A stretch of 32,437 nt of DNA from a bacterium (GTDB lineage Bacteria > Elusimicrobiota > Elusimicrobia > UBA1565): positions 1 to 32,437 of the forward strand of contig SCTT01000210.1 in assembly GCA_004322435.1 (NCBI GenBank), read 5' to 3'. This document shows, in pieces, positions 2,728-24,008 of this stretch; the first letter of the stretch is position 1; the number at the start of each line of letters is the position of its first letter. Position numbers and translations under genes: made by a program. The notes under the pieces were generated by a model, which saw only the letters and a program-made list of their open reading frames with translations, was not told the origin of the DNA and did not search any database.

Positions 2728-3004
2728 ATGCCCTGGCGGCTGATCTTCTTCCGTCTGGGCCGGGGCGGCGCTGACGGACTTGGAGCGGCTCGGGCCGGCC
2801 CTGCGGCGCCCGGACGCGGATTTCATCGCCGAAGGGATCTATGAGCTGCGGTTCCGGGCGGCGCGGGTCGAGTACCGGATCCTGTATTTCTTCGCGGAGG
2901 ACCGGGTCGTCCTGGCGCACGGATTCGTGAAGAAGTCCGCCGCCGTGCAGAAGCGGGAGTTCGAGAAAGCGGCGTCCCGACGCGAGATTTGGAGAATGGC
3001 ATGA
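2728..3004 (+). pseudogene. Degraded HigB/Gp49-family toxin (frameshift/deletion)
   Basis: N-terminus MPWRLIFFRLGRG in frame of 2728; C-terminal part LTDLERLGPALRRPDADFIAEGIYELRFRAARVEYRILYFFAEDRVVLAHGFVKKS in another frame ending at 3004. Confidence 0.65.
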
Positions 3005-4107
3005 AAACCAAGAAGAACCCCCATGAGGGCTCGAACGTCCGGACCTGGCTTAAGGCCGAGTCGAGGGACCCGGACTTTCGCGAGGGCCTTAAGAAAGCGA
3101 GCGCCCGCCGCCGGGTCGCCCGGCAGATCTACGACGCGCGCAAGAAGGCGGGCGTCTCCCAGCCGGAGCTGGCGCGGCGGCTGAAGACCAGCCAGGCCGC
3201 GGTGTCGCGGATGGAGTCCGGAGGCCAGAACATGACCCTCGACACCATCGAGAACATCGCCCGCGCCCTCGGCGGACGCTTCGAAGGGAGGATCCTCCTC
3301 CCCTCGACCCTTCTCCTCTTCTTGGCGGCTTCGCTGGGCTGGTCCGCCCCCTCCCCCCGCCCCGCCACCCCTGAAGAGGCCGTCGCCCAGGTCCTGACCG
3401 AGATGCGCGCCTCGCTGCGCTACGCCCCCGACGCCCCCGCGCCGCGCGGCCCGCACGAGTGGGACGCCTCCAAAGTCCTCTCGGCGGGGACCGTCAACGG
3501 CTGCGTGGAATCGGCCAAGACGTTCTTCACGCTATTTCGCCGGCGCTTTCCCGGGCATCAGGCCGCCTACCTGGACTCTTTCAACGCCAACGGCCCCGGC
3601 GGGCACGCGGTGGTCCAGGTGACGGGCTCCGACGGCGTCGACTTCATCGTGGACGCGGCGTCCTTCGAGCGGCTGCCGGGGCCGCTGCGTCTCGCCGAAG
3701 CGGACCTCGCCGCCCCGGTCGACATCCGCAAGGACAAGACCGGCGCCGTCGCGCAGTTCGGGACGCGCGGCGACGTGTTCTTGACGAAGGATGGCGGCGC
3801 CTACGCGATGCTCGTCTATCCGCCCGGCGAGGTCTTCGACGGGCCGCTGCGCTCGCAGAAGTCCTTTAAGACCCTGGCCGAGCTCGACGCGGCCCTGAGC
3901 GAGTTCGCCGGGCCGGTGGATTTCCGGTTCGTGCGCGACCACGGCCTCATCTTGCCCTTCGCCGACGCCAAGCGGGACTCCTTTATATACCCCGACCCCG
4001 CCGGCGGCCTCGCGCGCTACGTCGTGTACGGACGGTTCTCGCGCCTCCCCGCCCAGGACGACGCCGAGGCCCGCGAGCCCGCGGCGCGCGCCCGCTACTC
4101 CCGCTAG
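3001..4107 (+). CDS. XRE/HigA-like HTH fused to signal-peptide/TM segment and transglutaminase-like domain
   Basis: ATGA overlap with toxin remnant; HTH SQPELARRLKTSQAAVSRMESG; hydrophobic LPSTLLLFLAASLGWSA; Cys/His/Asp motifs NGCVESA, GGHAVVQV, FIVDAA. Confidence 0.7.
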   Translation: MKTKKNPHEGSNVRTWLKAESRDPDFREGLKKASARRRVARQIYDARKKAGVSQPELARRLKTSQAAVSRMESGGQNMTLDTIENIARALGGRFEGRILLPSTLLLFLAASLGWSAPSPRPATPEEAVAQVLTEMRASLRYAPDAPAPRGPHEWDASKVLSAGTVNGCVESAKTFFTLFRRRFPGHQAAYLDSFNANGPGGHAVVQVTGSDGVDFIVDAASFERLPGPLRLAEADLAAPVDIRKDKTGAVAQFGTRGDVFLTKDGGAYAMLVYPPGEVFDGPLRSQKSFKTLAELDAALSEFAGPVDFRFVRDHGLILPFADAKRDSFIYPDPAGGLARYVVYGRFSRLPAQDDAEAREPAARARYSR

Positions 4108-4116
4108 ACCGCGGGG

Positions 4117-4186
4117 CCTAGGACTAAAGACCGGCCGAAGGCGGGACCAAAGGACCCTCTTCCATGGCCGCCGCGGGGGCTAAAGT
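4117..4186 (+). promoter_or_regulatory. CCTAGG-type upstream element, copy 1 (upstream of amidase)
   Basis: CCTAGGACTAAAGACC... with CCAAAGGACCCTCTT at 4147-4161 and TAAAGT at 4181-4186; ATG at 4193. Confidence 0.6.
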
Positions 4187-4192
4187 TCCAAT

Positions 4193-5368
4193 ATGCTCGT
4201 CCTAGCGGCCGCCTTGGCCGTCGCCGCCCCGGCCTCGGCTCAGGTCCCTCAACGCCTCGAGAGCACGGCCCGGGGGTTTGGCCATTCCGGCCTGCTCCAG
4301 GACGTCCCGCTGCTGCCCGAGGGCGTGCCCGTGACGCCGCCGCCCCAGAACACGCCCTCGCCGGACCTCGAGCTCGAGGAGGGCCAGGTCAACTTCGAGT
4401 ACGCCGAGATGGTCGACCGCTTCGAGTCTCTGCGCCGAACCGTCGTGCGCGGCAAGAAGCGCCGCCGCCGGCGCGTCGAAGTCCCCACCGGCGTCACGGA
4501 CGCCGACCGGGTCGAAGACGGCGGCATCAAGAAGATCGTCCTTCACGCCTCGGGCGGGGCGGGGGCCTGCGACGGGTCGGTGTCGCATCTTCTGAACGCC
4601 AAGACCGCCGCACACTTCATCGTCTGCCGCGACGGGCGCGTGACGCGGATGGTGCGCATCGAGGACATCGCCAACCACGTCAAAAACGACGCCGTCGACA
4701 GAGAGTCGGTGGGCATCGAGACCGAGTCGGGGCACCCCAACTCGCCCTATTTCCGCGACTCGGACTGGTCGCCCGAGGCCTACTGGAAGATGTACGCCTC
4801 GATGGCCTGGCTCATCCGGGCCATCGCGAAGGAAGCCGGCGTCCCGCGCGACCGCTCCGCTGTCATCACCCACGAGGAGGCCGACCGCGGCATCCGCGGC
4901 GCCCACACCGACCCGGGGCCGCCCTTCGACGGCGGCTCCCAGCCGGCCTTCGACGCGCGCTTCCCGGGCCAGAACGTCTCGCCGCGCGAGTTCCTGATGC
5001 GCCTCGTCACCGACGACGCCCCGCCGCGGCTGTGGCGCCGGACCGGGCCCGCCGGCGACGGCGTCGAGGTCAAGGACGCCGAGCAGCTGGGCCTGGCCCA
5101 CATCCGCGTGTGGCGCCTAGACGCGGCCGGCAAGCCCGCGACCAAGGTCTCCGAATGGTCCGCGCCGGCAAACGGCCTGCCGCCGGTCTCCCGCCTCGTC
5201 GCCGCGCCGGCCGAGCCGGGCGCCTACCGCATCGTCGCGCGCGATCTGGTGGGCAACACGAGCGCGGCGCTCTTGCGCGTGGCCGACCCCCTGCAGCCGG
5301 CGCCGGACCCCACCCTCCCCACGGCGGACCTGAAGGTCTTCTTGTTCCAGCCGCGGCCTTCGAACTAA
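4193..5368 (+). CDS. Exported N-acetylmuramoyl-L-alanine amidase (Amidase_2/PGRP fold)
   Basis: Signal peptide MLVLAAALAVAAPASAQ; KKIVLHASGG, AHFIVCRDG, NHVKNDAVDRESVGIETE, ITHEEADRGIRGAHTDPG. Confidence 0.85.
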   Translation: MLVLAAALAVAAPASAQVPQRLESTARGFGHSGLLQDVPLLPEGVPVTPPPQNTPSPDLELEEGQVNFEYAEMVDRFESLRRTVVRGKKRRRRRVEVPTGVTDADRVEDGGIKKIVLHASGGAGACDGSVSHLLNAKTAAHFIVCRDGRVTRMVRIEDIANHVKNDAVDRESVGIETESGHPNSPYFRDSDWSPEAYWKMYASMAWLIRAIAKEAGVPRDRSAVITHEEADRGIRGAHTDPGPPFDGGSQPAFDARFPGQNVSPREFLMRLVTDDAPPRLWRRTGPAGDGVEVKDAEQLGLAHIRVWRLDAAGKPATKVSEWSAPANGLPPVSRLVAAPAEPGAYRIVARDLVGNTSAALLRVADPLQPAPDPTLPTADLKVFLFQPRPSN

Positions 5369-5388
5369 GCGCACCACTGGGCCCGCCC

Positions 5389-5442
5389 TCCGACGACAAA
5401 GGGAACTTTTTTGGGGGGTAAAACGTACGTGTTGGTATGGGG
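5389..5442. repeat. Copy B of a dispersed 54-bp intergenic element
   Basis: TCCGACGACAAAGGGAACTTTTTTGGGGGGTAAAACGTACGTGTTGGTATGGGG; 44/54 identical to 2390-2443. Confidence 0.8.
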
Positions 5443-5508
5443 AAGCTTTCCGGCGCACAGCTCCGGGGTCTGATCTTTATCATCGGCCTGAGTCACGAAA
5501 GGGCTCGA

Positions 5509-5539
5509 AATTGGAGGTCACAAATTGTGACTTCCAATT
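5509..5539. repeat. Long inverted repeat (15-bp arms, one mismatch, 1-nt centre)
   Basis: AATTGGAGGTCACAA A TTGTGACTTCCAATT. Confidence 0.8.
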
Positions 5540-5609
5540 CCTGGACAGAACCGGCCTGGCTCCTTAATATAACCCCTCCCCCGAGGTCCCACCCCCGGGT
5601 CCCGGCCGG

Positions 5610-5677
5610 CCTGGGACCATTGCCCGCCCCGGAGGGCCCCGAGGGCCCAAGGACCGTGCGGCCTTTCCCTATACAAT
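5610..5677 (+). promoter_or_regulatory. CCTAGG-type upstream element, copy 4 (divergent), with TACAAT box
   Basis: CCTGGGACCATTGCCC at -75; TACAAT at 5672-5677, 7 nt before ATG 5685. Confidence 0.45.
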
Positions 5678-5684
5678 TTGACTA

Positions 5685-8600
5685 ATGAAACTCTTAAGCG
5701 CGGCACTGTCGTCCTTCATCCTCCTTACCTCGCCCGGGCTCGGCGCCACGGAGGCTTTTGCACAGGTCCTCCGCTCGGCCCCCGTCTCGGGAACGCCCGT
5801 CGTGCCCGCCGTGCCGCTCCACATCCCCGCCGCGACGTCCTTCACCCCCACCCTCTCCGCCCCCTCTTTGGCCCTGCCCTCCGCCGCCGCGCCGCGCCTG
5901 GCCGCACCGGCCTCGCCGGCCGCCGTGAACGCCGCCCTGCCCGCGCGCGCCGCTCTCGCGGCCCCGGTGTCGGCCGCCGTCATCGCTTCGCCCGTCCGCG
6001 CCGCCGTCAACGCCGCCATTCCCGCGGCCCCCGAGGCCAAGCCCGAGACCGCGCTCGCGACCCTCTCCGCCAACGTCGAGACCCTCGGGAAGACCGCCGC
6101 CCCGTCGCAGGGCGCCTTGCTCCAGAATTTCTTCACCGGCTCGCGCTCCTGGGGCGCGGTCAACGCCGTCGTCGAGGCGACGCCCGGCTCCGAGCAGTCG
6201 GGCCGCTCCTCCCTCGAAGCCCCGGCCACCCCCGAGTCCTACGAGCCGACGGCCGTCGACTCGAAGAAGCCCTTGGCCGAGCGCAAGGCCGCCGTCGCCG
6301 CCATCGCCAAGTTCAACACCGACGCCGCGAAGGCCTCCCTCGTGCGCGTCGGCGAGGCGAACCCCCAGGGCGGCGCCGAGGACTACGAGGTGCACCGCGC
6401 CGCGTACAAAGCGCTGGCCGAGGGCTACGGCGAGGTGCGGAGCCTGCGCGCGGTGAGTCCCGAGCACAAGGCCGCCTTGGTGAAGAGCCTCAAGGACAAC
6501 AAGCCCTCCTTGGCCGTCTTCGACTACGACGACACTCTGCAGAAGTGGAAGGAGAAGGCCGCCCCCGACACGGGCGCCGCCCTCAAGGCCGCCGCCGACC
6601 AGGGCGTCTCCGTCGCCATCCTCACCGACCGCCCCGCCATCCAGGACGGGGGCTCGCCCACCGTCATCGATTCGCTCTCGGAACTCACCGCCGAGCAGAA
6701 GGCCGCCGTCACCCTCGCCGGCCGCGCGGGCGCCGAGATGGTGCAGTACGATTCCAAAGGCCGCGACGTCGTCGTCGACCGCATGCCGGGCTGGACCGAC
6801 GGCGAGCGCAAGGCCATCGACGCCGTCGCCGCCATCATCAAGGAGAAGTTCGGCACGGCCGAGCACGACGGCAAGTCCGGCAACGTGACCGAGTACGGCT
6901 TCTTCCAGCTCTTGCCCGTGCGCGCGCCCCAGTCGGTCCTAGACGAGGCGGTCAAGGTCGCGACCCTGGAGCTCGCCAACCGCGGCATGACGGGCCTCCA
7001 CATCTTCGCGCGCTACGCGAAAAGCATGGACGACCCGCCCTACCTGCAGGCCTCCAAGGTCAACAAGGTCCGCGGCATGAACATCCTGCGCGGCCAGCGC
7101 GCGGCCTACGAGCGCTTGAAGGATTTGCGCGCGCTGGGCCTGCCGGCCAAGTACGCCGCCAAGGCGCTGTCCTGGCTCAAGCGCATCCCCGAGGCGCAGA
7201 TCCCCGCCGCCAAGACCCTCGTCGTGGGCGACCAGTTCTTCGCCTCGCGCAACACGGACGCCGACATGGCCAAGGCCGCCCCCGGCGCGCTGGTCCTCTC
7301 CGTCGGCGCCAAGGCCGACCCGCGCCTCGAGAACATCTTCGTCTGGCCCTCGGAAGGCCACACGGCGACCCAGGAAATCCTCGGCGCCCTGGGAACCAAG
7401 GCCGACGACGGCGGCTTCAACAAGAAGGCGACCATCGGCCTCTTTTTAGGCCGCACGCTCTCCATCGGCTCCTTCGTCCTGACCGCCATCGCCTACCCCT
7501 ACGTGGCCGCGCCCGCCGTGGGCTGGGCCACCTTCGGGACGTTGATGGCGCTCGGGCCCTTGGCCGCCATCGCGACCGGCCCGCTCAACGGGGCCCTGGC
7601 CGACAAGTTCTCGGCGCGCACCTCGATGACCATCAACATGGTCATCCGCGCGGTGCTCGCGATGGCCCTGCCGACCTTCGCGTACTTCGGCATCATCAAC
7701 TTCTGGACGCTGCTCATCGCCTCCATCGCCAACGGCTGGGCGCTCTCGGCCACGATGACGACCGAGACCGCCTACGTGCGCCGCATCGCGGGCAAGCACC
7801 AGAACGCGGTGCAGGCCCTCATCTCGGTCAACTTCGTGGCCCTGCAGGTCATCTTGGGGCTCTTGGTCGGCATCGGCTCCTACATCGACGCCTGGGCGCC
7901 CACCACGCCCTTCCTCATCTCGGCCATCGCGCACGCCGCCATCGCGGCGCCCTTGATGTGGTTCACGATGCCCTCGGACAAGCCCGCGGGCAACGCCGCC
8001 GCGAAGACCCAGCAGAAGGCTCCCTTCTCGGAGCGCGCCGGGACCTTCGCCAAGAAGTACTGGAAGGAGGCCCTCATCACCGCCGCCTCCATCGGCTCCT
8101 ACGCGTTCTTCCACTCGGCGCTCCCCATCGCCGGGGCGCTCTTCTATTGGGTCCTCAACACGGACACCGTGAAGGCCCTGCGCGCCGGCGAGTTCCGCGA
8201 GGTCGCCCCGCGCGAGAAGGAAATCGAGGCGGCCTTGAAGGACAAGGCCGGCGAGGACACGCCCGAGACCGCCGCCCTCAAGAAGGAAGCGAAGACCTGG
8301 AAGGGACGCCAGTTCAAGACCGTGCTCTACTCGGCCGGCCAGGCCGTGATGACCTACCCGTTCCAGAACTTCGCGCTGCCGCTCATCGCGGTGCTCCTCG
8401 TCGGCACGGCGGGCAAGGGCCTGCTCTTGGGCAAGCTCCTGGGCGCCATGTACTTCGGCAACCTCATCGCCAACTCCTCGCAGGCGGCCCTCCCCGAGAT
8501 CCGCCTGCCCCTCGTCGGCCGCGTCCCCGGCCAGCGCATCGTGCAGGGCCTCGTGCTCGGCATGGCCGCGGCCTGGGTCTACACCGGCCTCGTCCCCGGC

Positions 8601-9089
8601 AGCATCCTCGCCGCGGCGGCGGCCGTCGCCATCGCCTCGGGCCTCATGTGGCTGTCGGGGCGCATCACCAACAAGGGCTGGATCAAGGCGCTGGGCTTTG
8701 GCCTCGCGGGCATCGCCCTCCCGGCGGCGGTCTGGGCGTTCCCGGCGCTCATCCCGTTCATGGACGTGCAGACGGCGCTCTTCTTGGCGATGCTCAACTA
8801 CGGCCTCTTCGTGGGGCCCTCGTCGGTGTCGCTGGGCATCTACCAGCAGGGCAACACCAACAAGGCGCACCTGGGCAAGGTGTTCGGGACGGGCTCCTCG
8901 TTCTTTAACACCTTCAACTCCATCGGCTACGGGCTCCTGGCCCTGGCCGCGAGCGCGTTCACGCCGGCCTTCCCGGCGATGTTCGTGCCGATGCTGGGCC
9001 TCTACGCCTTGGGCGGGTACCTGTTCTTCCGGGCCCCCAAGAACCTGCCCGGTCTTCCTGAAAACTCGTTTAAAAAGAACGAGAAATAG
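5685..9089 (+). CDS. Signal peptide + Pro/Ala-rich linker + HAD-like domain + MFS-like transporter fusion (1134 aa)
   Basis: MKLLSAALSSFILLTSPGLGATEAFAQVLRSAPVSGTP...; HAD motifs LAVFDYDDTL, ILTDRP, LVVGDQFFASRNTDADMA; then many TM segments (FLGRTLSIGSFVLTAIAYPYV...GPLNGALADKFSARTSMTINMVIRAVLAM). Confidence 0.8.
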   Translation: MKLLSAALSSFILLTSPGLGATEAFAQVLRSAPVSGTPVVPAVPLHIPAATSFTPTLSAPSLALPSAAAPRLAAPASPAAVNAALPARAALAAPVSAAVIASPVRAAVNAAIPAAPEAKPETALATLSANVETLGKTAAPSQGALLQNFFTGSRSWGAVNAVVEATPGSEQSGRSSLEAPATPESYEPTAVDSKKPLAERKAAVAAIAKFNTDAAKASLVRVGEANPQGGAEDYEVHRAAYKALAEGYGEVRSLRAVSPEHKAALVKSLKDNKPSLAVFDYDDTLQKWKEKAAPDTGAALKAAADQGVSVAILTDRPAIQDGGSPTVIDSLSELTAEQKAAVTLAGRAGAEMVQYDSKGRDVVVDRMPGWTDGERKAIDAVAAIIKEKFGTAEHDGKSGNVTEYGFFQLLPVRAPQSVLDEAVKVATLELANRGMTGLHIFARYAKSMDDPPYLQASKVNKVRGMNILRGQRAAYERLKDLRALGLPAKYAAKALSWLKRIPEAQIPAAKTLVVGDQFFASRNTDADMAKAAPGALVLSVGAKADPRLENIFVWPSEGHTATQEILGALGTKADDGGFNKKATIGLFLGRTLSIGSFVLTAIAYPYVAAPAVGWATFGTLMALGPLAAIATGPLNGALADKFSARTSMTINMVIRAVLAMALPTFAYFGIINFWTLLIASIANGWALSATMTTETAYVRRIAGKHQNAVQALISVNFVALQVILGLLVGIGSYIDAWAPTTPFLISAIAHAAIAAPLMWFTMPSDKPAGNAAAKTQQKAPFSERAGTFAKKYWKEALITAASIGSYAFFHSALPIAGALFYWVLNTDTVKALRAGEFREVAPREKEIEAALKDKAGEDTPETAALKKEAKTWKGRQFKTVLYSAGQAVMTYPFQNFALPLIAVLLVGTAGKGLLLGKLLGAMYFGNLIANSSQAALPEIRLPLVGRVPGQRIVQGLVLGMAAAWVYTGLVPGSILAAAAAVAIASGLMWLSGRITNKGWIKALGFGLAGIALPAAVWAFPALIPFMDVQTALFLAMLNYGLFVGPSSVSLGIYQQGNTNKAHLGKVFGTGSSFFNTFNSIGYGLLALAASAFTPAFPAMFVPMLGLYALGGYLFFRAPKNLPGLPENSFKKNEK

Positions 9090-9090
9090 G

Positions 9091-9165
9091 TCTAGGTCCT
9101 TAGCCGTCCCCCAGGGGCCGACCGGCCCAGGCGGGGCCGCGGCTTGGGCCTCATCCTTCCTTAAG
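9091..9165 (+). promoter_or_regulatory. CCTAGG-type upstream element, copy 3
   Basis: TCTAGGTCCTTAGCC at -75 relative to ATG 9166. Confidence 0.45.
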
Positions 9166-11445
9166 ATGAGGCTGACCCGCATCCTGCTCGCGGCCCTGGC
9201 GCTCTTGAGCGCGCCGGGACAGGGCGCCTACGCCCAGTTCGCCAAGGTCGCCCCCGTCCGGACCGTCCCCGCCGCCCCTGCGGCGCCGCTCCAGCTCCGC
9301 CTTCCGCTGAATTCGGCCCCGACGGGCCTCGCCGTACCCGGCCTGGCCGCGCCGTCCCTCACGACGCCTTCTCTGCCGACCCCCAGCGTCTCGGCCAAGG
9401 CCGTCGCCGTCGCGGCCGCCGCGGCGCCCGCCCAGGCCGCCGCTTTCCCCCTCTCCCGCGTTCGGGAGAGGGATGGGGTGAGGGCATCGGTCGGGCTTCC
9501 CTCACCCTACCCTCTCCCGCAAGGGCGGGAGAGGGAAAATGGAAAAGAGCAAGCCACGGCAAAGGCGACGCTGGAGAAAGGAGCCGCTTCGCTGAATGTG
9601 CGCGGCATCGTGCCCGCCGCCGCCCTCGACGCCTTCTTCGAAGGGGCGAAGGCCCGCGCCGAGAATTCGAATGCGGTCGCCCCTGAAGGCCAGCCGAGCC
9701 GGACCGCGCGGCCGGGCCTGGCGCCCGCCGCCGAGCCCGCCCCGGCTCCGGCCCCGACCGTCGCGGCACCCCAAACCGCCGAAGACAAGCCGAACGTCAA
9801 GGCGCTGGCCGGGCTCTTCACCTCGCGCACCGTCTCCATCGCGAGCTTCATCCTCACCTCCATCGCCTACCCCTTCCTCGCCGTGCCGGTCGTCGGCTGG
9901 GCGGGCTTCGGCGCGCTGATGGCCTTCGGGCCGCTGGCCGCCGTCGCCACGGGCCCTTTAAACGGCCTCATCGCCCAGCGCCTGTCGGCGCGCAAGGCCA
10001 TGGCCATCAACGCCGGCATCCGCGCCGCTCTTTCGCTGGTGCTGCCCGTAGCGGCCGGCTTCGGCTTCTTGAACTTCGGGACCTTGCTCGTCGCTTCGGT
10101 CGCCAACGGCTGGATCATGAGCTCGGTGATGACGGTCGAGGGCGCGTACCTCAAGAAGCTCGCCGGCGAGAAGGCGCTCGGCACGGTCAACGGCCTGGCC
10201 TGGATGAACTACCTGGCCATCCAGGTGGTGCTCGGCCTCATCGTGGGGGTCGGCTCCATCGTCGACAAGTGGGACCCCTCGGCGGCCTTCTACATCTCGG
10301 CGGCGGTGCACGCCCTCCTGGTCCTCCCCATCCTCTGGTTCACGATGCCGGACCTCGCCCCGCCGGGCCAGCGCCGCATCCCCTCCCACGTGGGCCTGTT
10401 GGCGCAGGCCGTCGCCTTCTTCAAGTCCAACGCCCTGCCGCTCGGCGCCGCGGCGCTCGGCGTCGGCGCCTACCTAGCCTTCTCGACCACCTTGCCCCTC
10501 ATCGCCGCCATCCTCTACTGGGTGACGCGCTCCAAGTCCTTCAAGGACGTGTGGAGCGGCGCCGCCCGCGCCGACTCGCCCGACGAGGCCGTGCTGCGGG
10601 AGAAGGTCGCGGCCGCGGCGGACGGCCCGGAGAAGGCGCGCTACGAGTCCGAGCTGGCCCTGCGCGCCAAGCGCCTGCGCACCGCGATGCTCTACCTGTC
10701 GCTCGCCGCCCTCTTCCTCTTCCCGCTCCAGTACTTCGTCCTGCCCGCCGCCGCCACGGCCCTGGCGGGCGCGGCCGGGGCGGCCGGGAAGGGCCTCATC
10801 CTGGGCCGCCTCTTGGGCGCCCTCTTCCTCGGCAACCTCGTCTCGGTGGCCGCCCGCGCGAAGCTCCCGGTCCTCAAGCTGTTCGGCCGCTCCTTTAAAG
10901 GAGAGCGCCTCGTGCAGGGGGCCGTCATGGCGCTGGCCGCGGGCTGGTCGCTCGCAGCTCTCGCGCCGGGCAGCCTCGTCGTGGCGGCCGCCGTCGCCGC
11001 CGCCGCGCTCGGCCTCATGGCTCTGGCCGCCCGCCTCACGGACACCGGCTGGGTGAAGCTCATGGGCCCCGGCTTCGCCGCGGTGGCCCTGCCCTACCTC
11101 GTCTGGACCGCCGGCCTCTTCCCGGGCTTCGGCCCCGCGGCGGCCCTGACCGTGAGCCTCCTCGTCGCCGGCATGGTCTACGGCCCGGCCTTCGTGGCCT
11201 TGAACACCACCTTCCAGCGCTGGGTCTCGCCGGACAAGATGGGCCCGTCCATCGGCGCGCAGAGCTCCTTCTTCAACGGGGCGCTGTCCTTGGGCTACGG
11301 CGTCATCTCGCTGGCGGCCTCCTTCGCCCCTCTGCCGGGCCTCTTGGGCTGGATGACGCTCGCCTACGGCGTCCTCGGCATCCTCTTCTGGCTGGCGCCG
11401 CGCTTTTTGCCCGGCCTGCCCGCGACGATGTTCCACAAAAAGTAA
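9166..11445 (+). CDS. Signal peptide + Pro/Ala-rich linker + MFS-like transporter (paralogue of 5685 gene, no HAD domain)
   Basis: MRLTRILLAALALLSAPGQGAYAQFAKVAPVRTVPAAPAAPL...; membrane half aligns with the preceding gene (LFTSRTVSIASFILTSIAYPFLAVPVVGWAGFGALMAFGPLAAVATGPLNG); both end in LPGLP..F.K. Confidence 0.8.
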   Translation: MRLTRILLAALALLSAPGQGAYAQFAKVAPVRTVPAAPAAPLQLRLPLNSAPTGLAVPGLAAPSLTTPSLPTPSVSAKAVAVAAAAAPAQAAAFPLSRVRERDGVRASVGLPSPYPLPQGRERENGKEQATAKATLEKGAASLNVRGIVPAAALDAFFEGAKARAENSNAVAPEGQPSRTARPGLAPAAEPAPAPAPTVAAPQTAEDKPNVKALAGLFTSRTVSIASFILTSIAYPFLAVPVVGWAGFGALMAFGPLAAVATGPLNGLIAQRLSARKAMAINAGIRAALSLVLPVAAGFGFLNFGTLLVASVANGWIMSSVMTVEGAYLKKLAGEKALGTVNGLAWMNYLAIQVVLGLIVGVGSIVDKWDPSAAFYISAAVHALLVLPILWFTMPDLAPPGQRRIPSHVGLLAQAVAFFKSNALPLGAAALGVGAYLAFSTTLPLIAAILYWVTRSKSFKDVWSGAARADSPDEAVLREKVAAAADGPEKARYESELALRAKRLRTAMLYLSLAALFLFPLQYFVLPAAATALAGAAGAAGKGLILGRLLGALFLGNLVSVAARAKLPVLKLFGRSFKGERLVQGAVMALAAGWSLAALAPGSLVVAAAVAAAALGLMALAARLTDTGWVKLMGPGFAAVALPYLVWTAGLFPGFGPAAALTVSLLVAGMVYGPAFVALNTTFQRWVSPDKMGPSIGAQSSFFNGALSLGYGVISLAASFAPLPGLLGWMTLAYGVLGILFWLAPRFLPGLPATMFHKK
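9449..9535. repeat. In-frame 87-bp palindromic REP/MITE-like element
   Basis: Hairpins CCCTCTCCCG/CGGGAGAGGG (9449-9472) and CCCTCTCCCGC/GCGGGAGAGGG (9510-9535), plus GGGTGAGGG/CCCTCACCC (9476-9484/9499-9507). Confidence 0.85.
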
Positions 11446-11455
11446 GATTGGGCCC

Positions 11456-11821
11456 ATGGCCCTCATCTTGGTCGCCGACGACACCCCCGAGGTCGCCGAA
11501 CTCGTCCAGGACATCCTCGAGGCGCGCGGCCACCAGGTCGTGATGGCCGCCGACGGCGTCCAGATGATCGAGCGGGCCAAGACCGTGAACCCTCAGCTCA
11601 TCATCTCGGACATCATGATGCCGGGCGCCTACGGCTCCTCGGCCTACAAGGCCCTGCAGGACGACCCCCACACCAAGGGCATCCCGGTGCTGTTCTTGAC
11701 CGGCGTGAACCACGAGGCCGCCGCGAAAGTCGTCCCGCAGGCGGCCAACGTGCGCCTGCTCTTCAAGCCCCTCGACGTCGCGCATCTGCTGGCCGCGGTG
11801 GCGGAGCTTCTGGGGAAGTAA
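11456..11821 (+). CDS. CheY-like single-domain response regulator
   Basis: MALILVADDTPEVAELVQDILEARGHQV...LIISDIMMPG...PVLFLTG...LLFKPLD; receiver acidic pair, Asp, Thr and Lys present. Confidence 0.9.
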   Translation: MALILVADDTPEVAELVQDILEARGHQVVMAADGVQMIERAKTVNPQLIISDIMMPGAYGSSAYKALQDDPHTKGIPVLFLTGVNHEAAAKVVPQAANVRLLFKPLDVAHLLAAVAELLGK

Positions 11822-12189
11822 TGGCCCTCATCCTCGTCGCCGAAGACGCCGCCGAGCTCGCCGAGATGCTCAAGCACGTCCTCGAGTCGCGCGGCCATCA
11901 GGTCGCGGTGGCCGCCGACGGCGTCGAGATGATCGAGAAGGCCAAGAACCTGAGGCCCAAGCTCATCATCTCGGACATCATGATGCCCGGCGCCTACGGC
12001 TCGGCGGCCTTCAAGTCCCTGCAGGACGACCCCTACACGAAGGGCACTCCCGTCATCTTCCTCACCGCCGTCAGCCCCGAACAGGCCGTGCGGGTCGTCG
12101 GCGAGGGCCCGGGCATCCTCATCCTCCACAAGCCGGTGGACATCATGGCCTTGATCGCGGCCGTGAACCAGATGCTGCCGGCTGCCTAG
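11821..12189 (+). CDS. CheY-like single-domain response regulator (tandem paralogue)
   Basis: MALILVAEDAAELAEMLKHVLESRGHQV...LIISDIMMPGAYGSAAFKSLQDDP...ILHKPVD; start overlaps the previous stop (TAATG). Confidence 0.9.
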   Translation: MALILVAEDAAELAEMLKHVLESRGHQVAVAADGVEMIEKAKNLRPKLIISDIMMPGAYGSAAFKSLQDDPYTKGTPVIFLTAVSPEQAVRVVGEGPGILILHKPVDIMALIAAVNQMLPAA

Positions 12190-12191
12190 CC

Positions 12192-12220
12192 TTGACTTGC
12201 CCGAACACCGGGGCTACACT
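12192..12220 (+). promoter_or_regulatory. Sigma70-type promoter TTGACT-17 bp-TACACT
   Basis: TTGACT 12192-12197, TACACT 12215-12220. Confidence 0.65.
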
Positions 12221-12271
12221 AGCGTCGCACCCCGCCGAGTAGGCGTCCGCAGTCCGCGGCCGCCGTCGTTT

Positions 12272-13747
12272 TTGCTTTACAACACCCTCCGCAGAGCCCT
12301 CCTCGGGGCTTTGGCGGCGCTCGCCTGCTCGGGAGCCGCCGAGGCCGCGCCGTCGTTCACCGCGGAAGAGACGGTCTTCTTCAGCCGGACGTCGTCTATG
12401 TCGGTGCAGTCGGTGGTGACCGTCCCGGGCGGGTTCCGGATGTACGTGACGAGCGGCCCGTACCGCGTCCTCTCGGCCACCTGCACGGACCAGGTCGCCT
12501 GGGGCCTCGAGAGCGGCATACGCCTGACGACCTCGGTCGTCGCCAACGACGTCTCCTCCATCACCTACCTCTCGGTCGTGGCCTCGACGGCGGTCGGCGG
12601 CGGCTGGCGGATGTACTACGTGGGCATCGACGCTGGGGGCCTCTACCGGGTCCTGAGCGCGACCTCCACCGACGGCCTGGCCTGGGGCAAGGAGCAGGGG
12701 ACCCGGCTCCAAAACAACGGGGGGCAGGGATTTATCGGCAGCCTGTCGGGCTTCTCGGTGTCGAACACCGAACGCCGCCTCTACTACGTGGCCGACCGCG
12801 ACGGCTTGAACAACGCCTCCCGCTACGCGGTCTTCGTCGCGACCTCGGGGGACGGCGGCCTCAACTTCGGCCCGGGCACGCTGGCCCTCTCGGCCAACGC
12901 GTACGCGGTCTCGGCGACGACGATGACGAGCGGCAAGACCCGCATCTACTACACCTCCCCCTTGACCGGCTCGACGACGGCCAGCCAGGTCCTCTCGGCG
13001 ACGGCCTCTGACGGGCTCTCGTTCACCTCTGAGAGCGACGTGCGCCTGTCGACGACGGCCTCCGTCTCGGGCTTCCGCGGCCTGGTCGTCCTGCGCTCCA
13101 CCGACAGCTTCCGCTGGCGGATGTACACCGACTACATCATCGGCGGCACCACCGAGACCTTCATCTCGCACGCGCTGACGAGGACCCCGGTCGTCGAGAG
13201 CTTCTCGCCCGCCGCCGTCGACAAGGGCCGCACCGGCGTCCCGTACACGCTGACCGGCGAGATCTTCTCGCCGACCCCCACGGTGTCCTTCGTGCTGGGG
13301 GCCTCCACCTACAACGCGACGACCGTCGTGCGCGCCGACGACACGTCGCTCTCGGGCGTGTTCGACACGCTCAACCGCTACCAGGGCGTCTACAACGTCG
13401 CCGTCGTCAACGCCGACGGCCGGCCGGGGTTCCTGTCGAACGCCCTCGAGATCCGGCTCCCCCCCGGCAGCGTCACCATGCTCGACAACCTCTTCCGCCC
13501 GACCAAAGGCGGGACGACCAAGGCCACCGTCGAGCTCTTCGAGGCCGGGGAGGTCACCGCCCGCCTCTACACCGTCGACGGGAACCTCGTCGCGACGCTG
13601 TTCCAGGGGACGATGCCCGCGGGCCAGACCCAGTTCACCTGGAACGGCCGCACGCCGGCCGGCAGCGTGGTGGCCAGCGGGGTCTATCTGCTCAACGTCG
13701 TGGGTCCCAACCTCAACACCACCGAGCGCGTGGTGGTCGTCAAGTGA
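12272..13747 (+). CDS. Exported beta-propeller-like protein with IPT/TIG-like and C-terminal FlgD-Ig-like domains
   Basis: TTG start at 12272 lies downstream of the promoter and gives LYNTLRRALLGALAALACSGAAEAAPSF; repeats (RMYVTSGPYRVLSAT / RMYYVGIDAGGLYRVLSAT); C-term VTARLYTVDGNLVATLFQGTMPAGQTQFTWNGRTPAGSVVASGVYLLNVVGP. Confidence 0.7.
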   Translation: MLYNTLRRALLGALAALACSGAAEAAPSFTAEETVFFSRTSSMSVQSVVTVPGGFRMYVTSGPYRVLSATCTDQVAWGLESGIRLTTSVVANDVSSITYLSVVASTAVGGGWRMYYVGIDAGGLYRVLSATSTDGLAWGKEQGTRLQNNGGQGFIGSLSGFSVSNTERRLYYVADRDGLNNASRYAVFVATSGDGGLNFGPGTLALSANAYAVSATTMTSGKTRIYYTSPLTGSTTASQVLSATASDGLSFTSESDVRLSTTASVSGFRGLVVLRSTDSFRWRMYTDYIIGGTTETFISHALTRTPVVESFSPAAVDKGRTGVPYTLTGEIFSPTPTVSFVLGASTYNATTVVRADDTSLSGVFDTLNRYQGVYNVAVVNADGRPGFLSNALEIRLPPGSVTMLDNLFRPTKGGTTKATVELFEAGEVTARLYTVDGNLVATLFQGTMPAGQTQFTWNGRTPAGSVVASGVYLLNVVGPNLNTTERVVVVK

Positions 13748-14685
13748 GGGCCGCCCTCCTCCTCGCCGCCGTCCTCTTCGCCGCGCCCCGCGCCCATGCC
13801 GAGGCCGGGCGCAGCGCCGCGGCTTTCCTCAAGCGCGCGCTGGGCGCGCGCGCCGCGGCGATGGGCGGCGCCGGGACGGCCCTCGTCGACCCCGGCCCCG
13901 GCGCGCCCCAGTTCAACCCCGGCGGCCTGGCGCGCGTCGCGCGCCCGTCTTTGACGAGCGCCTACCTCAACGGCTACGGCGGCGTCACGCACGGCTACGC
14001 GGCCTACGCGCACCCCCTGCCCTACGGCGTCCTCGGCACGGGCCTGCTCTACTTCAACGCCGGCGACATAGGCCTCAACCTCTCGGACGGGACGAAGCGC
14101 ACCGTGACCTCCGAGGAGGACCTGGCCTGGACCTTGAGCTACGCCGTCCCGCTGCCTTTCGGGGTCAGCGTCGGCGGAAGCTACCGCTTCCTGCGCATGG
14201 AGCTGGCCGAGACCGCCTCCGCCGTCTCCCACCAGGGCGACGCGGGGGCGCTCTGGCGCACCCCGGTCAAGGGGCTCTCGCTCGGGGCCGCCCTCCAATA
14301 TTGGGGCCCCGACATCGTCTTCGAGGAGGCCGGCGACCCGCCGCCCAAGACCTTCCGCTACGGCGCCGCGCTGCGCCTGCCCGACATCGACGCGGCCAAG
14401 GTGGACCCCACGGTCGACTTGGCCGCCTTCGACATGACGGTGGCCGGCGACGTGGTGCAGACCGTCTTCGAGTCCCCCTATCAGCGCCTCGGGGTCGAGC
14501 TGGGCCTGACGCCGTCCCTCATGAGCCGCATCGCCCTGCGCTTCGGCTGGGTCTTCAACCGCTTCGCCGAAGGCTTCACCCTCGGAGCGGGCTTCAAGAC
14601 GGGGCGCTATACCTTCGACTTCGGTCACGGCGACACCAAGACGATGAAGGGGCTGACCAGCGCCTCGTTCACGGTGGAGTTTTGA
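13744..14685 (+). CDS. PorV/PorQ (UPF0164)-like outer-membrane beta-barrel protein
   Basis: GTG start overlapping previous stop; signal peptide; AAAFLKRALGARAAAMGGAGTALVDPGPGAPQFNPGGLARV is typical of the family; C-terminal FTVEF. Confidence 0.75.
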   Translation: MRAALLLAAVLFAAPRAHAEAGRSAAAFLKRALGARAAAMGGAGTALVDPGPGAPQFNPGGLARVARPSLTSAYLNGYGGVTHGYAAYAHPLPYGVLGTGLLYFNAGDIGLNLSDGTKRTVTSEEDLAWTLSYAVPLPFGVSVGGSYRFLRMELAETASAVSHQGDAGALWRTPVKGLSLGAALQYWGPDIVFEEAGDPPPKTFRYGAALRLPDIDAAKVDPTVDLAAFDMTVAGDVVQTVFESPYQRLGVELGLTPSLMSRIALRFGWVFNRFAEGFTLGAGFKTGRYTFDFGHGDTKTMKGLTSASFTVEF

Positions 14686-14791
14686 TGGGCCTGCCCATTG
14701 GTGCCGGACTTTAGTTATTCGGTCTGCTCCAACCCTCCCTCGTAAGACGTTCCTCCCGCCTCCAAACCCCCATCTCTAAAGCCTGAGCATG

Positions 14792-14860
14792 CCTAGGTCC
14801 TTTATCCTTTAAAACAGGGGCCAAAGGACCCTCTTTGATAGGAGGCCCAAGAGCAAAAAT
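14792..14860 (+). promoter_or_regulatory. CCTAGG-type upstream element, copy 2 (upstream of amidase)
   Basis: CCTAGGTCCTTTATCC with CCAAAGGACCCTCTT at 14821-14835; ATG at 14867. Confidence 0.6.
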
Positions 14861-14866
14861 CTGGGT

Positions 14867-15958
14867 ATGAAGCGCTTGCTTCCCCTGCTGGCCCTCTCGG
14901 CCGCCGCCGCGCTGGGCTGCTCGAAGTGCGACGACGCCGCCCCGCAGGCTTCCGCCAAGGGCTTCAGCGCCGAGTCCGGCCCCGCCGGCGAGCCGACCGC
15001 CTCCCTCGAGCCCCCGCCGCCGGGCGTCCTGGTGGCCGCCAAAGGCCCCGCCGGGTCCTCTTCCTTCGCCGGCGAAGTCTCCGACGACGGCCGCGCCGTC
15101 TTCGACGGCGACCGCCTGCGCGACGGCCTGGGTTCCGGCGGCGCCGTGCGCGGCCAGTTCTCCGACAATTCCAGGAAGTGGGCCTCGCTGCGCGGCCAGC
15201 TCGCGGAGAGCCGCCAGGGCCGCGCCAGCTACGCGGCCGTCCCCCCGCCCCGCGGGACCACCGGCAACGGCGTGCGCCCCGACGCGAGCGTCCCGGACGT
15301 TCCGGCCGGCAAGGTCTTCAACCTCACCGAATACCAGCGCTTCGAGCAGGCGATGTACACCACCGTCTACCCGGTGCTGACCCGGCTGGGCTGGAACGCC
15401 CGCTCCCGCCGCGGCGGCGCGACCGGCATGGACCCCTACCGACTGACCGTCCACCACACGATGGGCCACCAGACCTTCGGCGAGGCCGAGACGGCCGCCG
15501 CCGTGCGCGGCATCCAAGCCTTCCACCAGGGCCCGGAGCGCGGCTGGGCCGACATCGGCTACCACTTCCTCATCGACGGCGCGGGCCGCGTCGCCGAAGG
15601 CCGCCCGGCCAACGTCCTGGGCGCCCACGCCGCCGAGGCCAACAGCGGCAACCTCGGCATCTCGCTGATGGGCAACTTCGACGTGGCCCAGCCCTCGGAC
15701 TCCCAGATGGACTCCTTGGAGCGCCTGGCCGCCTATCTGGCCCTGCGCTACGACATCCCGGTGATGAAGACGGGCTACCTGGAAGGGCACAACCACCACG
15801 GCGACACGACCTGCCCCGGCCGCTACCTGAACGCCCGTCTGGCCGAGATCCGCTCGCGCGTCGTGCAGGAAGAGGCGAAGATCCGCGACCGCGACGCCGG
15901 GGGCGGCAAGCCCAACTACGCGGCCTTCACCCCGCTGGTCGTCACTCGGCCGGCCTGA
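14867..15958 (+). CDS. Lipoprotein N-acetylmuramoyl-L-alanine amidase (PGRP fold)
   Basis: Lipobox ALGC; YRLTVHHTMGHQTF, GWADIGYHFLIDGAGRVAEGRPANVLGAHAAEANSGNLGISLMGNF, LEGHNHHGDTTCPGRYL. Confidence 0.9.
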   Translation: MKRLLPLLALSAAAALGCSKCDDAAPQASAKGFSAESGPAGEPTASLEPPPPGVLVAAKGPAGSSSFAGEVSDDGRAVFDGDRLRDGLGSGGAVRGQFSDNSRKWASLRGQLAESRQGRASYAAVPPPRGTTGNGVRPDASVPDVPAGKVFNLTEYQRFEQAMYTTVYPVLTRLGWNARSRRGGATGMDPYRLTVHHTMGHQTFGEAETAAAVRGIQAFHQGPERGWADIGYHFLIDGAGRVAEGRPANVLGAHAAEANSGNLGISLMGNFDVAQPSDSQMDSLERLAAYLALRYDIPVMKTGYLEGHNHHGDTTCPGRYLNARLAEIRSRVVQEEAKIRDRDAGGGKPNYAAFTPLVVTRPA

Positions 15959-18910: not shown

Positions 18911-18954
18911 ACCATCCACATGGTCAGTATAACCATGCGCCCTGCTTTTGTCAA
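18911..18954 (-). promoter_or_regulatory. TetR gene promoter (TTGACA-17 bp-TATACT) with operator
   Basis: TTGACA = revcomp 18949-18954; TATACT = revcomp 18926-18931; inverted repeat ACCATCCACATGGT at 18911-18924 over the expected start site. Confidence 0.75.
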
Positions 18955-20432
18955 GCCGTGATTTTGGAGGAGAGCCAGCCGGCCAGGCGGAACAGCCAGT
19001 TGGCCTTGGGCGCCTTCGCGGGCTTGGCGTCCATGTCCTTGAGGAACTCGAGCGAGAGGCGGTAGGCGTTGGCGTAGTGCGGCAGCGAGAACGACTTGAT
19101 GGTGTCGTTGGCCGAGTGGATGATGTCCCAGATGACCTCGAGCGAGGCGCCGAAGAACATGAGGCCCAGCACCCCGGCGCGGCGGAAGCTCGTGTGGTCC
19201 GAGTCGCCGCCGTCGAGATAAAGCTCCTTTAAGTCCCGGCCGGTGCGGCGGGCGGTCTCCATCGCGCGCGCGAGGAGGACCTTGTCCGAGCCGTTCTTCC
19301 AGGAGAACGTCCCGTCGACGCCGAGCGTGTCCAGGTTCAGCATGTAGTCGATTTTCTTGAGCTGCTCGCGGGTCAGGCTCTCCACGTACTTGTCGGAGCC
19401 GACCAGGCCCTCCTCCTCGCGGGAGAAGGCGATGAAGACGTAGGTCGCGTCGGTGTCGAGCTCGCGCAGCGCCTGGTAGAGGTTCACGACCATCGTGGCC
19501 CCGGTCCAGTTGTCGATGGTGCCCGCGCCCTCGTGCACCTTGTCGTGGTGGCCGCCGACCACGACCACGCGGTCGGTGCGGCCCTTCTTGACGACGTAGA
19601 TGTTGTGCGTGCCGCGGCCGGTGTCCTGGGTCTTGATCTCTTCGGGCTTGGCGCCGGCGGCCTTGAAGAGCTCGGCCACCACGCGCTCGCGCTCGGGGTT
19701 CGTCAGCGGAGAGAGGGCTACGGTCTTGTAGAGGTCGTCGTCGGAGGGGACGCCCTCGACCCGCGAGCGGCCCTGGCCGTTCTGGGCGACCGCGAGACGC
19801 TGGCCCGGGGCCAGGCGCCCGGCGGCGAAGAGGCGCTCGGCGCGGCCGACGAAGGCCTCGGGGCCCTCGATGCCGCGCGCGCCGTCGAAGAGGCCGGCGA
19901 GGCGGGACGGCAGGCCCTGCGGCAAGGTCCCGGCCAGGTCCTTGGCGGCGGCCTTGAGCGCGGGCGCGGCCCCGGCCTTCTCGGCCAGAGACTCGATGCG
20001 GGCGGCCAACGCGCCGCCCTGCTCGCCCTGCTCGCGCAGCGCGGCGACGAGGGCGGTCCGGGCTGCCTCGTCGCCCAGCGCGCGCGCGACGACCGCGGCG
20101 CCCTGGGCGGAGGTGACGAAGGACTCGTTGCCGGGGGCGAGCGGCGCCGCCAGCGCGGCGCGGGTCAGGTAGGCGGCTGCGGCTTGGGGGTTGGCCGGAC
20201 GCGCCTCGGGGAGGGCAACGTTCGGGAGGGTGGGCGAGAGGCGCGCCTCGGCCTGGGAGAGGTGGCGGTCGATGGCGCCCAACAGGAAGCTCGGCAGGGC
20301 GGCGGGGCCGACGGGGGCGCCCGGGTTCCCCGGCGTCTGGACGGGGGTCGCGCGATAGACCTGGGAGAAGGCGGGGAGGGGCTGGGCCGCGGCGAGGATG
20401 ACGGCCAGGAGGCCGCAGAGGGGGTTCTTCAT
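18951..20432 (-). CDS. Exported M28-family metallopeptidase with Pro/Ala-rich leader module
   Basis: MKNPLCGLLAVILAAAQPLPAFSQVYRATPVQTPGNP...; VVVVGGHHDKVHEGAGTIDNWTGATMVVNLYQAL, AFSREEEGLVGSDKYV, LDGGDSDHTSFRRAGV. Confidence 0.85.
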   Translation of the reverse strand: MKNPLCGLLAVILAAAQPLPAFSQVYRATPVQTPGNPGAPVGPAALPSFLLGAIDRHLSQAEARLSPTLPNVALPEARPANPQAAAAYLTRAALAAPLAPGNESFVTSAQGAAVVARALGDEAARTALVAALREQGEQGGALAARIESLAEKAGAAPALKAAAKDLAGTLPQGLPSRLAGLFDGARGIEGPEAFVGRAERLFAAGRLAPGQRLAVAQNGQGRSRVEGVPSDDDLYKTVALSPLTNPERERVVAELFKAAGAKPEEIKTQDTGRGTHNIYVVKKGRTDRVVVVGGHHDKVHEGAGTIDNWTGATMVVNLYQALRELDTDATYVFIAFSREEEGLVGSDKYVESLTREQLKKIDYMLNLDTLGVDGTFSWKNGSDKVLLARAMETARRTGRDLKELYLDGGDSDHTSFRRAGVLGLMFFGASLEVIWDIIHSANDTIKSFSLPHYANAYRLSLEFLKDMDAKPAKAPKANWLFRLAGWLSSKITA

Positions 20433-20526
20433 AGGGTTATGCTACCCCCTCCCCCCTTTCGCCCTGAGAGCCGAAAGGCCTATATAAGGAACGGCATACG
20501 ACCCCAGAGGACCTGGGTCCGGCGCC

Positions 20527-21519
20527 TTATATCGCTCCCATGCGGTTGGGCGGCCAGTAGATGACCCAGGCCTTCCCTTTGACGTACTTCTCGGCCACCG
20601 GGCCCCAGAAGCGGGAGTCGCAGGAGCGGTCGCGGTTGTCGCCCATCATGAAGTAGGCGCCGGCCGGCACCTTGACCGGTCCGAAGTGGTCCTTCATCGT
20701 GTCGCCGAGCTTCAAATCGAGCTGCCCGCCCTGCCAGAGCTCCTGGTACAGCGCGGGCGGCGGGGCCAAAGCCGGCGGGTCGCCGCGGTAGGAGTCGAGG
20801 AACTGGGTGAAGGGCTCCTTCCCGAGGACCTCCCCGTTGCGCACCAGCACGCCGCCGCGGACCTCGAGGGTGTCGCCGCCCACGGCCACGACGCGCTTGA
20901 TGAAGTCCTTGCCGAACTGGGAGCCGCCGCAGTGCTGGGCCTCGGGGTCCTCGGTGGGGAAGCGGAAGACGATGATGTCGCCGGCCTTCACGGGCTTCAA
21001 GCGCAGCACGCGCTTGTCGGTGAACGGGATGCGCACGCCGTAGACGAACTTGTTGACGAAGAGGTGGTCGCCGATGCGCAGGGTGCTCTCCATCGAGCCG
21101 GAGGGGATCTTGAAGGCCTGCACGAGGAAATACATGAGGAGCGAGGCCAAGATGACCGCGGAGTAGACGGTCTCCGCCCACTCGAGGTCCTCGTTGAGGA
21201 AGTAGCGCCGCTTCTCGGCGTCGGACCCGGTGGACCAGGCGCGCCAGAGGCCGAAGGCCGCCAAAAGCGCGCCGCCGGCCAGGCCCGCCCCGACCTCGCG
21301 CAGCGACAAAGAGCCCGCCGAGGCGCCTACGAACTTGAGGCGGCTCTCCACCGAGAGCACGGCGATGAGCATCACCGAAAAGCCGGCCAGCCCCAAGAAG
21401 AGCGCGTGCCACAGCGAGGCGGGGAGCTTCTCGTCGAGCTTGCCCGAGGCCGTCCAGCGCTTGGTGAGCCAGGCGTAGCCGAACATCGCCACGCCGATCC
21501 AGAAAAGCCGTGCTTCCAT
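20527..21519 (-). CDS. lepB: Signal peptidase I
   Basis: IPSGSMESTLRIGDHLFVNKFVYG, FIKRVVAVGGD, FMMGDNRDRSCDSRFWGPV. Confidence 0.92.
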   Translation of the reverse strand: MEARLFWIGVAMFGYAWLTKRWTASGKLDEKLPASLWHALFLGLAGFSVMLIAVLSVESRLKFVGASAGSLSLREVGAGLAGGALLAAFGLWRAWSTGSDAEKRRYFLNEDLEWAETVYSAVILASLLMYFLVQAFKIPSGSMESTLRIGDHLFVNKFVYGVRIPFTDKRVLRLKPVKAGDIIVFRFPTEDPEAQHCGGSQFGKDFIKRVVAVGGDTLEVRGGVLVRNGEVLGKEPFTQFLDSYRGDPPALAPPPALYQELWQGGQLDLKLGDTMKDHFGPVKVPAGAYFMMGDNRDRSCDSRFWGPVAEKYVKGKAWVIYWPPNRMGAI

Positions 21520-21538
21520 GGGCGCTATTCTAGGTTAT

Positions 21539-22213
21539 TCACCGGATGAAGCCTATCCGCGACGGCGGCCAGTAGACGAAGGCGGCCTTCCCCACCGCGT
21601 AGCGGTCCCAGACGGGCCCCCAGAAGCGGCTGTCGCAGGAGGCGTCGCGGTTGTCGCCCAGCGCGAACACGGCGCCCGGCGGGACCGTCACCGGGCCGAA
21701 GTGGTCGCGCACCCCGTCGCCGACCTCCATGTCGAGGCGCCGGGCCTCCCAGGACGCCTGGTATTCGGCGGCGGGGAGCGTCACCGGGGACTTCGCGCAG
21801 GGTCCCGGCGCGGTGTGCTTCGCGTACGGCTCGGCCCCCCCGCGGGCGCCGTTGAGGTAGAGCGCCCCCTCCCGGAGCTCGACGACGTCGCCGGGCACGC
21901 CGACGACGCGCTTGAGCCACAGGCGCCCGGCCTGGGTCCCCGTGCAGTGCACCTCGGCGCGGTCGTCGGTCGGAAAATAAAAGACCAGGAGGTCCCCCCC
22001 CTGCGGGGCGCGGCGCGGCCAGCGCGCGCGGGTGCCGGGGAAGCGCAGCCCGTAGGCGGCCGGCAGGACCAGCACCCGGTCGCCGACCTTGAGCGTGTCC
22101 TCCATCGAGGCCGTGGGGATGCGGAAAGGGCGTACGACGAAGGAGACGCAGGCTCCGGCCGCCAGGAAGGCGGCCCCGAAGGCCTGCGCCCAGCGGAGGG
22201 CTTCCCTGTTCAA
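21539..22213 (-). CDS. lepB: Signal peptidase I (second copy)
   Basis: IPTASMEDTLKVGDRVLVLPAAYG, WLKRVVGVPGD, FALGDNRDASCDSRFWGPV; TTG start at 22213 overlapping the lepA stop preferred over 22345. Confidence 0.88.
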   Translation of the reverse strand: MNREALRWAQAFGAAFLAAGACVSFVVRPFRIPTASMEDTLKVGDRVLVLPAAYGLRFPGTRARWPRRAPQGGDLLVFYFPTDDRAEVHCTGTQAGRLWLKRVVGVPGDVVELREGALYLNGARGGAEPYAKHTAPGPCAKSPVTLPAAEYQASWEARRLDMEVGDGVRDHFGPVTVPPGAVFALGDNRDASCDSRFWGPVWDRYAVGKAAFVYWPPSRIGFIR

Positions 22214-24008
22214 CGCTCGATCTTCAGCACGGCCAGGAAGGCCTCCTGGGGGATGTCCACCGAGCCCAGCTGCTTGGCCTTGCGCTTGCCTTCCTTCTGC
22301 TTCGAGAGGAGCTTGCGCTTGCGCGTGATGTCGCCGCCGTAGCACTTGGCGATGACGTCCTTGCGGATGGCGGGGATGGTCTCGCGGGAGATGATGCGCC
22401 CGCGCACCGAGGCCTGGATGGCGATCTCGAACTGCTGGCGCGGGATGAGCTCCTTGAGCTTCTCGCAGAGCTGGCGCCCCATCGTCTGGGCCTTGTCCTT
22501 GTGGACGATCTGGCAGAGGGCGTCCACGGGGTCCTGGTGGACGAGGATCTCGAGCTTCACCAGATCCGACTCCCGCTCGGAGGCCTCCTGGTAGTCGAAG
22601 GAGGCGTAGCCCTTCGACACGGACTTGAGCTTGTCGTAGAAGTCCATCACGATCTCGGCCAGAGGCATCTCGTAGCGGATGATCATGCGGTCGGCCGAGA
22701 GGTACTCGATGGCCTTGTGGGAGCCGCGGCGGTCCTTGAGGAGGTTCAAGACGGGCTCCTGGAAGCCCACCGGCAAGACGATGGTGACGTCCACGTAGGG
22801 CTCGCGGATGGAGGCGATGTCGCCGTAGTGCGGGAACTTGGCGGGGTTGTCCATCCGGAAGTACTCGGTCTCGTTGACCTTGCGGAGCATGAAGGAGACG
22901 TTCGGGCTCGTGACGATGAGGTCGAGGTCGAACTCGCGCTCGAGGCGCTCCTTGACGATGTCCATGTGCAAGAGGCCCAAAAACCCCAGGCGGAAGCCGA
23001 AGCCCAGGGCCTCCGAGGTGTCGACCTGATATTGGAACGAGGAGTCCTCGAGGTGCAGCTTCTCCAAGGCGGCCTTGAGCTCCGGGTATTCGGCCGGGTT
23101 GATGGGGAAGACGCCCGCGAACACGACCGGCTTGGCCTCTTTGTAGCCGGGCAGCGGCTCCTGGAGCGGCCGCGCGGCCTCCATCACGGTGTCGCCGACG
23201 CGGATCTGGTGGATGTCCTTGATGCCGCAGACGAGGTAGCCGACCTCGCCGGCCGTGAGCTTCTGCGCCTGCACCTGCTTGGGCGTGAGGTAGCCGACCT
23301 CCTCGACGACGGTGTCCATGCCGGTCGAGTGGAAGCGCAGCTTCTTGCCGCGCTCCATCGTGCCGTCGACCATCCGCACGTAGAGGATGACGCCGCGGTA
23401 GGCGTCGTAGAGCGAGTCGAAGATGAGCGCGGCCAAGGGCTTTTCCGGGTCGCCGGTCGGCGCGGGGAAGTCCCGGACGATGGCGGCCAGGACGTCGTCG
23501 ACGCCGATGCCGGCCTTGGCCGAGGCCATGATGGGGTTCTCGATGATGGAGAGCACGTCGAAGATCTGCTCCTCGACGGCGGCCACGTCGGCCGAGGGCA
23601 GGTCCACCTTGTTGATGACGGGGATGATCTTGAGGCCGACCTTCTTGGCCAGATCGCAGTTGGCCAAAGTCTGCGCCTCGACGCCCTGCGTCGCGTCGAC
23701 GACCAAGAGCGCCCCCTCGCAGGCGGCCAGCGCGCGAGAGACCTCGTAGGTGAAGTCCACGTGGCCGGGCGTATCGATGAGGTTGAGGATGTACTCCTGA
23801 CCGTCGGCGGCCGTGTGGTTCATGCGCACGGCCTTGGCCTTGATGGTGATGCCCCGCTCGCGCTCGAGCTCCATCGAGTCCATCATCTGCGCTTCCATCT
23901 TGCGCAGCTCGATCGTGCCGGTCTTCTCGAGCAGCCGGTCGGCGAGCGTGGACTTGCCGTGGTCGATGTGGGCGATGATGGAGAAGTTGCGGATGCGCGC
24001 GACGTCCG

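Follow-up and report, generated by a model that had tools for sequence, protein, structure and literature searches.

Response regulators of the NarL family have a receiver and a GerE domain, and NarL itself recognises inverted heptamers in a 7-2-7 layout, which is common to the unit described here. The half-site of this unit, TRGGY, is also similar to the consensus of GerE, a sporulation protein of Bacillus subtilis that is not known to have a receiver domain. The closest described system is DevR/DosR of Mycobacterium tuberculosis, a NarL-family response regulator with a KTVKN recognition helix, whose core residues for DNA binding are K179, K182 and N183 and for which the test oligonucleotide is TTGGGGACTAAAGTCCCTAA (PMC5999986). 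The palindromic DosR box is GGGACT-WW-AGTCCC. DevR promoters have closely packed sites, of which the proximal one overlaps the -35 box (PMC3029386). Here, we analysed a stretch of 32,437 nucleotides from an Elusimicrobia genome (the window), in which a palindrome near-identical to the DosR box occurs as closely packed units, the proximal one over the putative -35 region. In contrast to DevR/DosR, the targets predicted here are exported proteins, found in numerous genomes of a different phylum, the promoters look leaderless, and the spacing stays near 24 bp throughout. We propose, at a probability of roughly 0.7, that a tandem operator promoter, widespread in Elusimicrobia, drives exported-protein genes via a NarL/DosR-type response regulator by class-II activation.

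The starting point was the 15-mer CCAAAGGACCCTCTT, which a preliminary description had placed at 4147-4161 and 14821-14835. Both copies were confirmed, and each begins exactly 46 nt ahead of the start codon of an Amidase_2 gene (ATG at 4193 and 14867). When the window was scanned with a PWM built from the sites of other genomes alone, position 4119 ranked first on the plus strand and position 20506 first on the minus strand; with small shifts in spacing allowed, 14794 (before amidase 2) was added, as was, at a weak score, 5612 (before ORF 5685). The predicted sites and their genes are as follows.

4119..4134, plus strand: distal operator unit of amidase 1, TAGGACTAAAGACCGG; top plus-strand match of the PWM from other genomes only
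4143..4158, plus strand: proximal operator unit of amidase 1, GGGACCAAAGGACCCT, holding most of the 15-mer at 4147-4161 (sequence, PWM)
4181..4186, plus strand: -10 TAAAGT of amidase 1, 38 nt after the proximal unit start and 6 nt before the ATG
4193..5368, plus strand: amidase 1 (Amidase_2), signal-peptide-like N-terminus MLVLAAALAVAAPASAQ
5612..5627, plus strand: weaker distal unit before ORF 5685, spacing 22 (score 11.4; low confidence)
5634..5649, plus strand: weaker proximal unit before ORF 5685 (low confidence)
5672..5677, plus strand: -10 TACAAT before ORF 5685, 7 nt before the ATG at 5685
14794..14809, plus strand: distal operator unit of amidase 2, TAGGTCCTTTATCCTT, spacing 23 (PWM with small spacing shifts)
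14817..14832, plus strand: proximal operator unit of amidase 2, GGGGCCAAAGGACCCT, holding most of the 15-mer at 14821-14835
14855..14860, plus strand: -10 AAAAAT of amidase 2, 6 nt before the ATG
14867..15958, plus strand: amidase 2 (Amidase_2), lipoprotein-like N-terminus
18951..20432, minus strand: Peptidase_M28 gene, signal-peptide-like N-terminus
20439..20444, minus strand: -10 TAGCAT of the M28 peptidase gene, 6 nt before the ATG
20467..20482, minus strand: proximal operator unit of the M28 peptidase gene, TAGGCCTTTCGGCTCT (PWM)
20491..20506, minus strand: distal operator unit of the M28 peptidase gene; top minus-strand match of the independent PWM

The window also holds a 372-aa protein with an HTH_3 domain directly upstream of amidase 1 (2989-4107), two adjoining receiver-only response regulators without an output domain (11456-12189), and two adjoining signal peptidase I genes (Peptidase_S26; 20527-22345, minus strand) upstream of the element-bearing M28 peptidase gene. 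Next to amidase 2, a weak PorV match (E=6e-4, below Pfam's cut-off) comes after a FlgD_ig-domain protein (12197-14685), a hint of a type IX secretion-like export module.

The operator unit is a palindrome of 16-17 bp, TRGGNCY-N2/3-RGNCCYA, in which some units have a 3-bp centre. Two such palindromes lie about 24 bp apart and are followed by a TATACT-like -10 and then the ATG. Across 18 sites of other genomes, the peak of -10-like hexamers falls exactly 38 nt downstream of where the proximal unit begins, with strong ones there in 10 of the 18; the boxes TAAAGT (4181) and AAAAAT (14855) of the preliminary description agree with this position. Both amidase genes have a second related unit 23-24 bp upstream of the proximal one, and the same paired layout before both supports the co-regulation that had been suggested for them. 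The 15-mer consists of most of the proximal unit plus three further bases, and in relatives, the sequence upstream of amidase 2 orthologues lacks it and has an imperfect palindrome pair in the same place. Read in this way, the 15-mer is not amidase-specific and makes up the greater part of the proximal half of a putative two-site operator; that all 15 letters agree may still owe something to chance inside a constrained site. At three loci of relatives (L122, L124 and L126), a third palindromic unit was seen downstream of the proximal unit and ahead of the -10, in promoters of related secreted-protein genes.

The paired pattern (two units, 24-bp period, at most 1 mismatch) gave 304 matches in the order compared to 19 for the reversed control, counted on both strands so that symmetric sites may count twice in pattern and control alike, and 53 of 56 genomes were positive. 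It was also found in other families of the class Elusimicrobia, chiefly f12 and f15. As a comparison, none was found in 106 genomes sampled from the phylum's other classes. With the PWM at score 15, 273 kb of sequence from the window's own genome, including some contigs picked for matching the unit pattern, yielded 15 matches compared to 0 in the reversed sequence, and the first 1.2 Mb of genome G044 yielded 23 compared to 0 at score 18. Simpler searches were less informative: a single-unit 17-bp pattern was too weak in the own genome (10 compared to 6), and a strict unit regex found no 24-bp pairing in the first 1.2 Mb of G044. Taken together, these sequence comparisons show that the predicted promoter element is real and class-wide, and it stands before many exported-protein genes.

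In the own genome, model R1, whose training set included two window sites, gave 94 matches at E<=1 from 150 of 2909 candidates scored. Where a start codon lies close behind the element, 16 of 18 genes pass a signal-peptide rule compared to 44 of 117 (38%) in the background (p=4e-5); the rule is crude, though tighter than a looser version with a background of 53%, and on inspection by eye one or more of the 16 positives, MTQKTGDPLLEFLGS among them, look doubtful. By Pfam, the products include an NlpC/P60 enzyme, an SLT transglycosylase, Sel1 and pentapeptide repeats and a subtilase, and in the window, the genes with the element are the two amidases, the M28 peptidase and, less perfectly, ORF 5685. 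A cell-wall stress regulator had been suggested as a possibility for the amidases, but the control would be wider, since exported proteins of many kinds, including wall hydrolases, have the element. An odd case for an exported protein is L250:1573-2427, which lies behind the element and combines a signal-peptide-like start with a strong adenylate kinase domain (PF00406). In addition, the site at L230/L242 (G000:C223:931-1007) is flanked on one side by a secreted NlpC/P60 gene and on the other by a divergent ORF, thiol peroxidase-like by eye, and may serve both directions.

Proteins with a LuxR-type HTH are common in these genomes, and most genomes have more than one GerE-domain protein. Among the GerE ORFs located by HMM, one response-regulator group, whose HTH domain contains LTKTE and KTVKNHLN, was found in families f1, f2, f3, f4, f11, f12 and f15, all with paired matches; it also occurs in f5 and f10, whose carriers have few or no paired matches. 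This candidate is present in nearly all element-bearing genomes; two incomplete assemblies, G011 and G045, have element matches and no full regulator was found in them. Outside the order, 8 of 20 regulator carriers have the paired pattern compared to 1 of 21 non-carriers (p=0.008, by statistics that ignore relatedness), and the named genomes with the protein are Elusimicrobia. The candidate regulator is the product of L257:563-1243, with a paralogue on L258. By Pfam, the candidate has a receiver and a GerE domain, as do NarL and the VraR/LiaR-type regulators, and among solved structures its best match is VraR (E=1.1e-35); the recognition helices of VraR and NarL, however, lack KTVKN. In contrast, its alignment to DevR (E=7.9e-33) keeps KTVKN of the recognition helix and retains the DosR contact residues K179, K182 and N183. 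Directly upstream of the regulator gene, several relatives have an ORF whose end is histidine-kinase-like by eye. The regulator gene itself mostly lacks the element, unlike in DevR/DosR, and autoregulation was in general not apparent. Taken together, these results make a NarL/DosR-type response regulator the best candidate for the regulator of the element.

The element could also be a genuine operator for another binder, either a CRP/FNR-type protein or a different LuxR-type regulator. The CRP/FNR-type palindrome TGTGA-N6-TCACA has the same 16-bp geometry as the unit, and most of these genomes have CRP-type proteins, as they have more than one GerE-domain protein. However, a CRP-type HTH protein is not found in every element-bearing genome: G088 and G090, both near complete, have no PF13545 match, yet they carry well-placed elements before secreted genes, and a CRP/FNR regulon was rejected. 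A different LuxR-type regulator has to contend with the candidate belonging to the group common to all element-bearing families sampled. We regard another binder as unlikely.

The comparisons show the element itself, the constancy of its geometry, how widely it is spread, its association with signal-peptide genes and its co-occurrence with the response regulator; binding by this regulator, activation, the transcription start and the signal sensed are inferred. Given a standard distance from the -10 to the start, the unit centres would lie near -42 and -66, and the proximal unit would overlap the -35 region. Two dimers of the NarL/DosR-type response regulator would occupy these units, and the bound regulator would stand in for an identifiable -35 box, recruiting sigma70 RNA polymerase to the TATACT-like -10, as in class-II activation. 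Since the ATG lies 6-8 nt behind the -10 in most well-placed own-genome matches, transcription would start at or beside the ATG, and the mRNAs are probably leaderless.

The preliminary description had named an alternative sigma factor as one possibility and had placed the CTCTT end of the 15-mer at about the position of a -35 box. Recognition by an alternative or ECF sigma factor would fit the fixed distance to the -10 and the lack of a recognisable TTGACA, but it is very improbable: the conserved features are two palindromes, of which the farther, centred near -66, would be beyond the reach of sigma, and the -10 is TATACT-like, as for sigma70. Such a promoter would have a conserved -35 box some 17 bp ahead of its -10 and no palindromes farther upstream, which is not what the element shows; the columns between the proximal unit and the -10 are little conserved while both upstream palindromes are, and the last three bases of the 15-mer fall outside the conserved unit. 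We give equally little credence to RNA hairpins in a 5' leader (an attenuator or riboswitch). A short GC-rich hairpin could form from each unit, but the units should not be transcribed because the -10 sits, at a fixed distance, between them and the ATG, and there was no Rfam match in the window.

The bare repetition of CCAAAGGACCCTCTT is weak evidence by itself. The two copies in the window are the only exact ones in the 4.04 Mb assembly, and a search with 1-2 mismatches in the own genome and in relatives gave mostly scattered or coding matches. The core AAAGGACCC showed no enrichment in the genome (16 matches compared to 20 in the reversed control). A BLASTP comparison of the two amidases gave no significant similarity, and therefore a recent duplication does not explain the shared 15-mer. 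It is above chance because of the same placement relative to the -10 and ATG, the related unit upstream at both genes, and the class-wide recurrence. A coincidence in a GC-rich window (69.5% GC, 62 different 15-mers present more than once) is scarcely credible, given that the larger element keeps its geometry and is enriched across the class.

Nearly all Elusimicrobia are uncultured, the class is little studied, and no such regulon is described in the open-access literature that we searched on them. The promoter signature would allow co-regulated exported proteins to be listed from genome sequence alone, and it names a regulator candidate. A stronger version, that the whole class runs much of its exported proteome by one promoter type with leaderless mRNAs under a single DosR-like two-component master switch, is more tentative, and we place it somewhat below even odds; it would be unusual, if true, for one switch of the secretome to be conserved throughout a class. 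Taken together, these results suggest that one regulator of a known family may switch on much of Elusimicrobia secretion.
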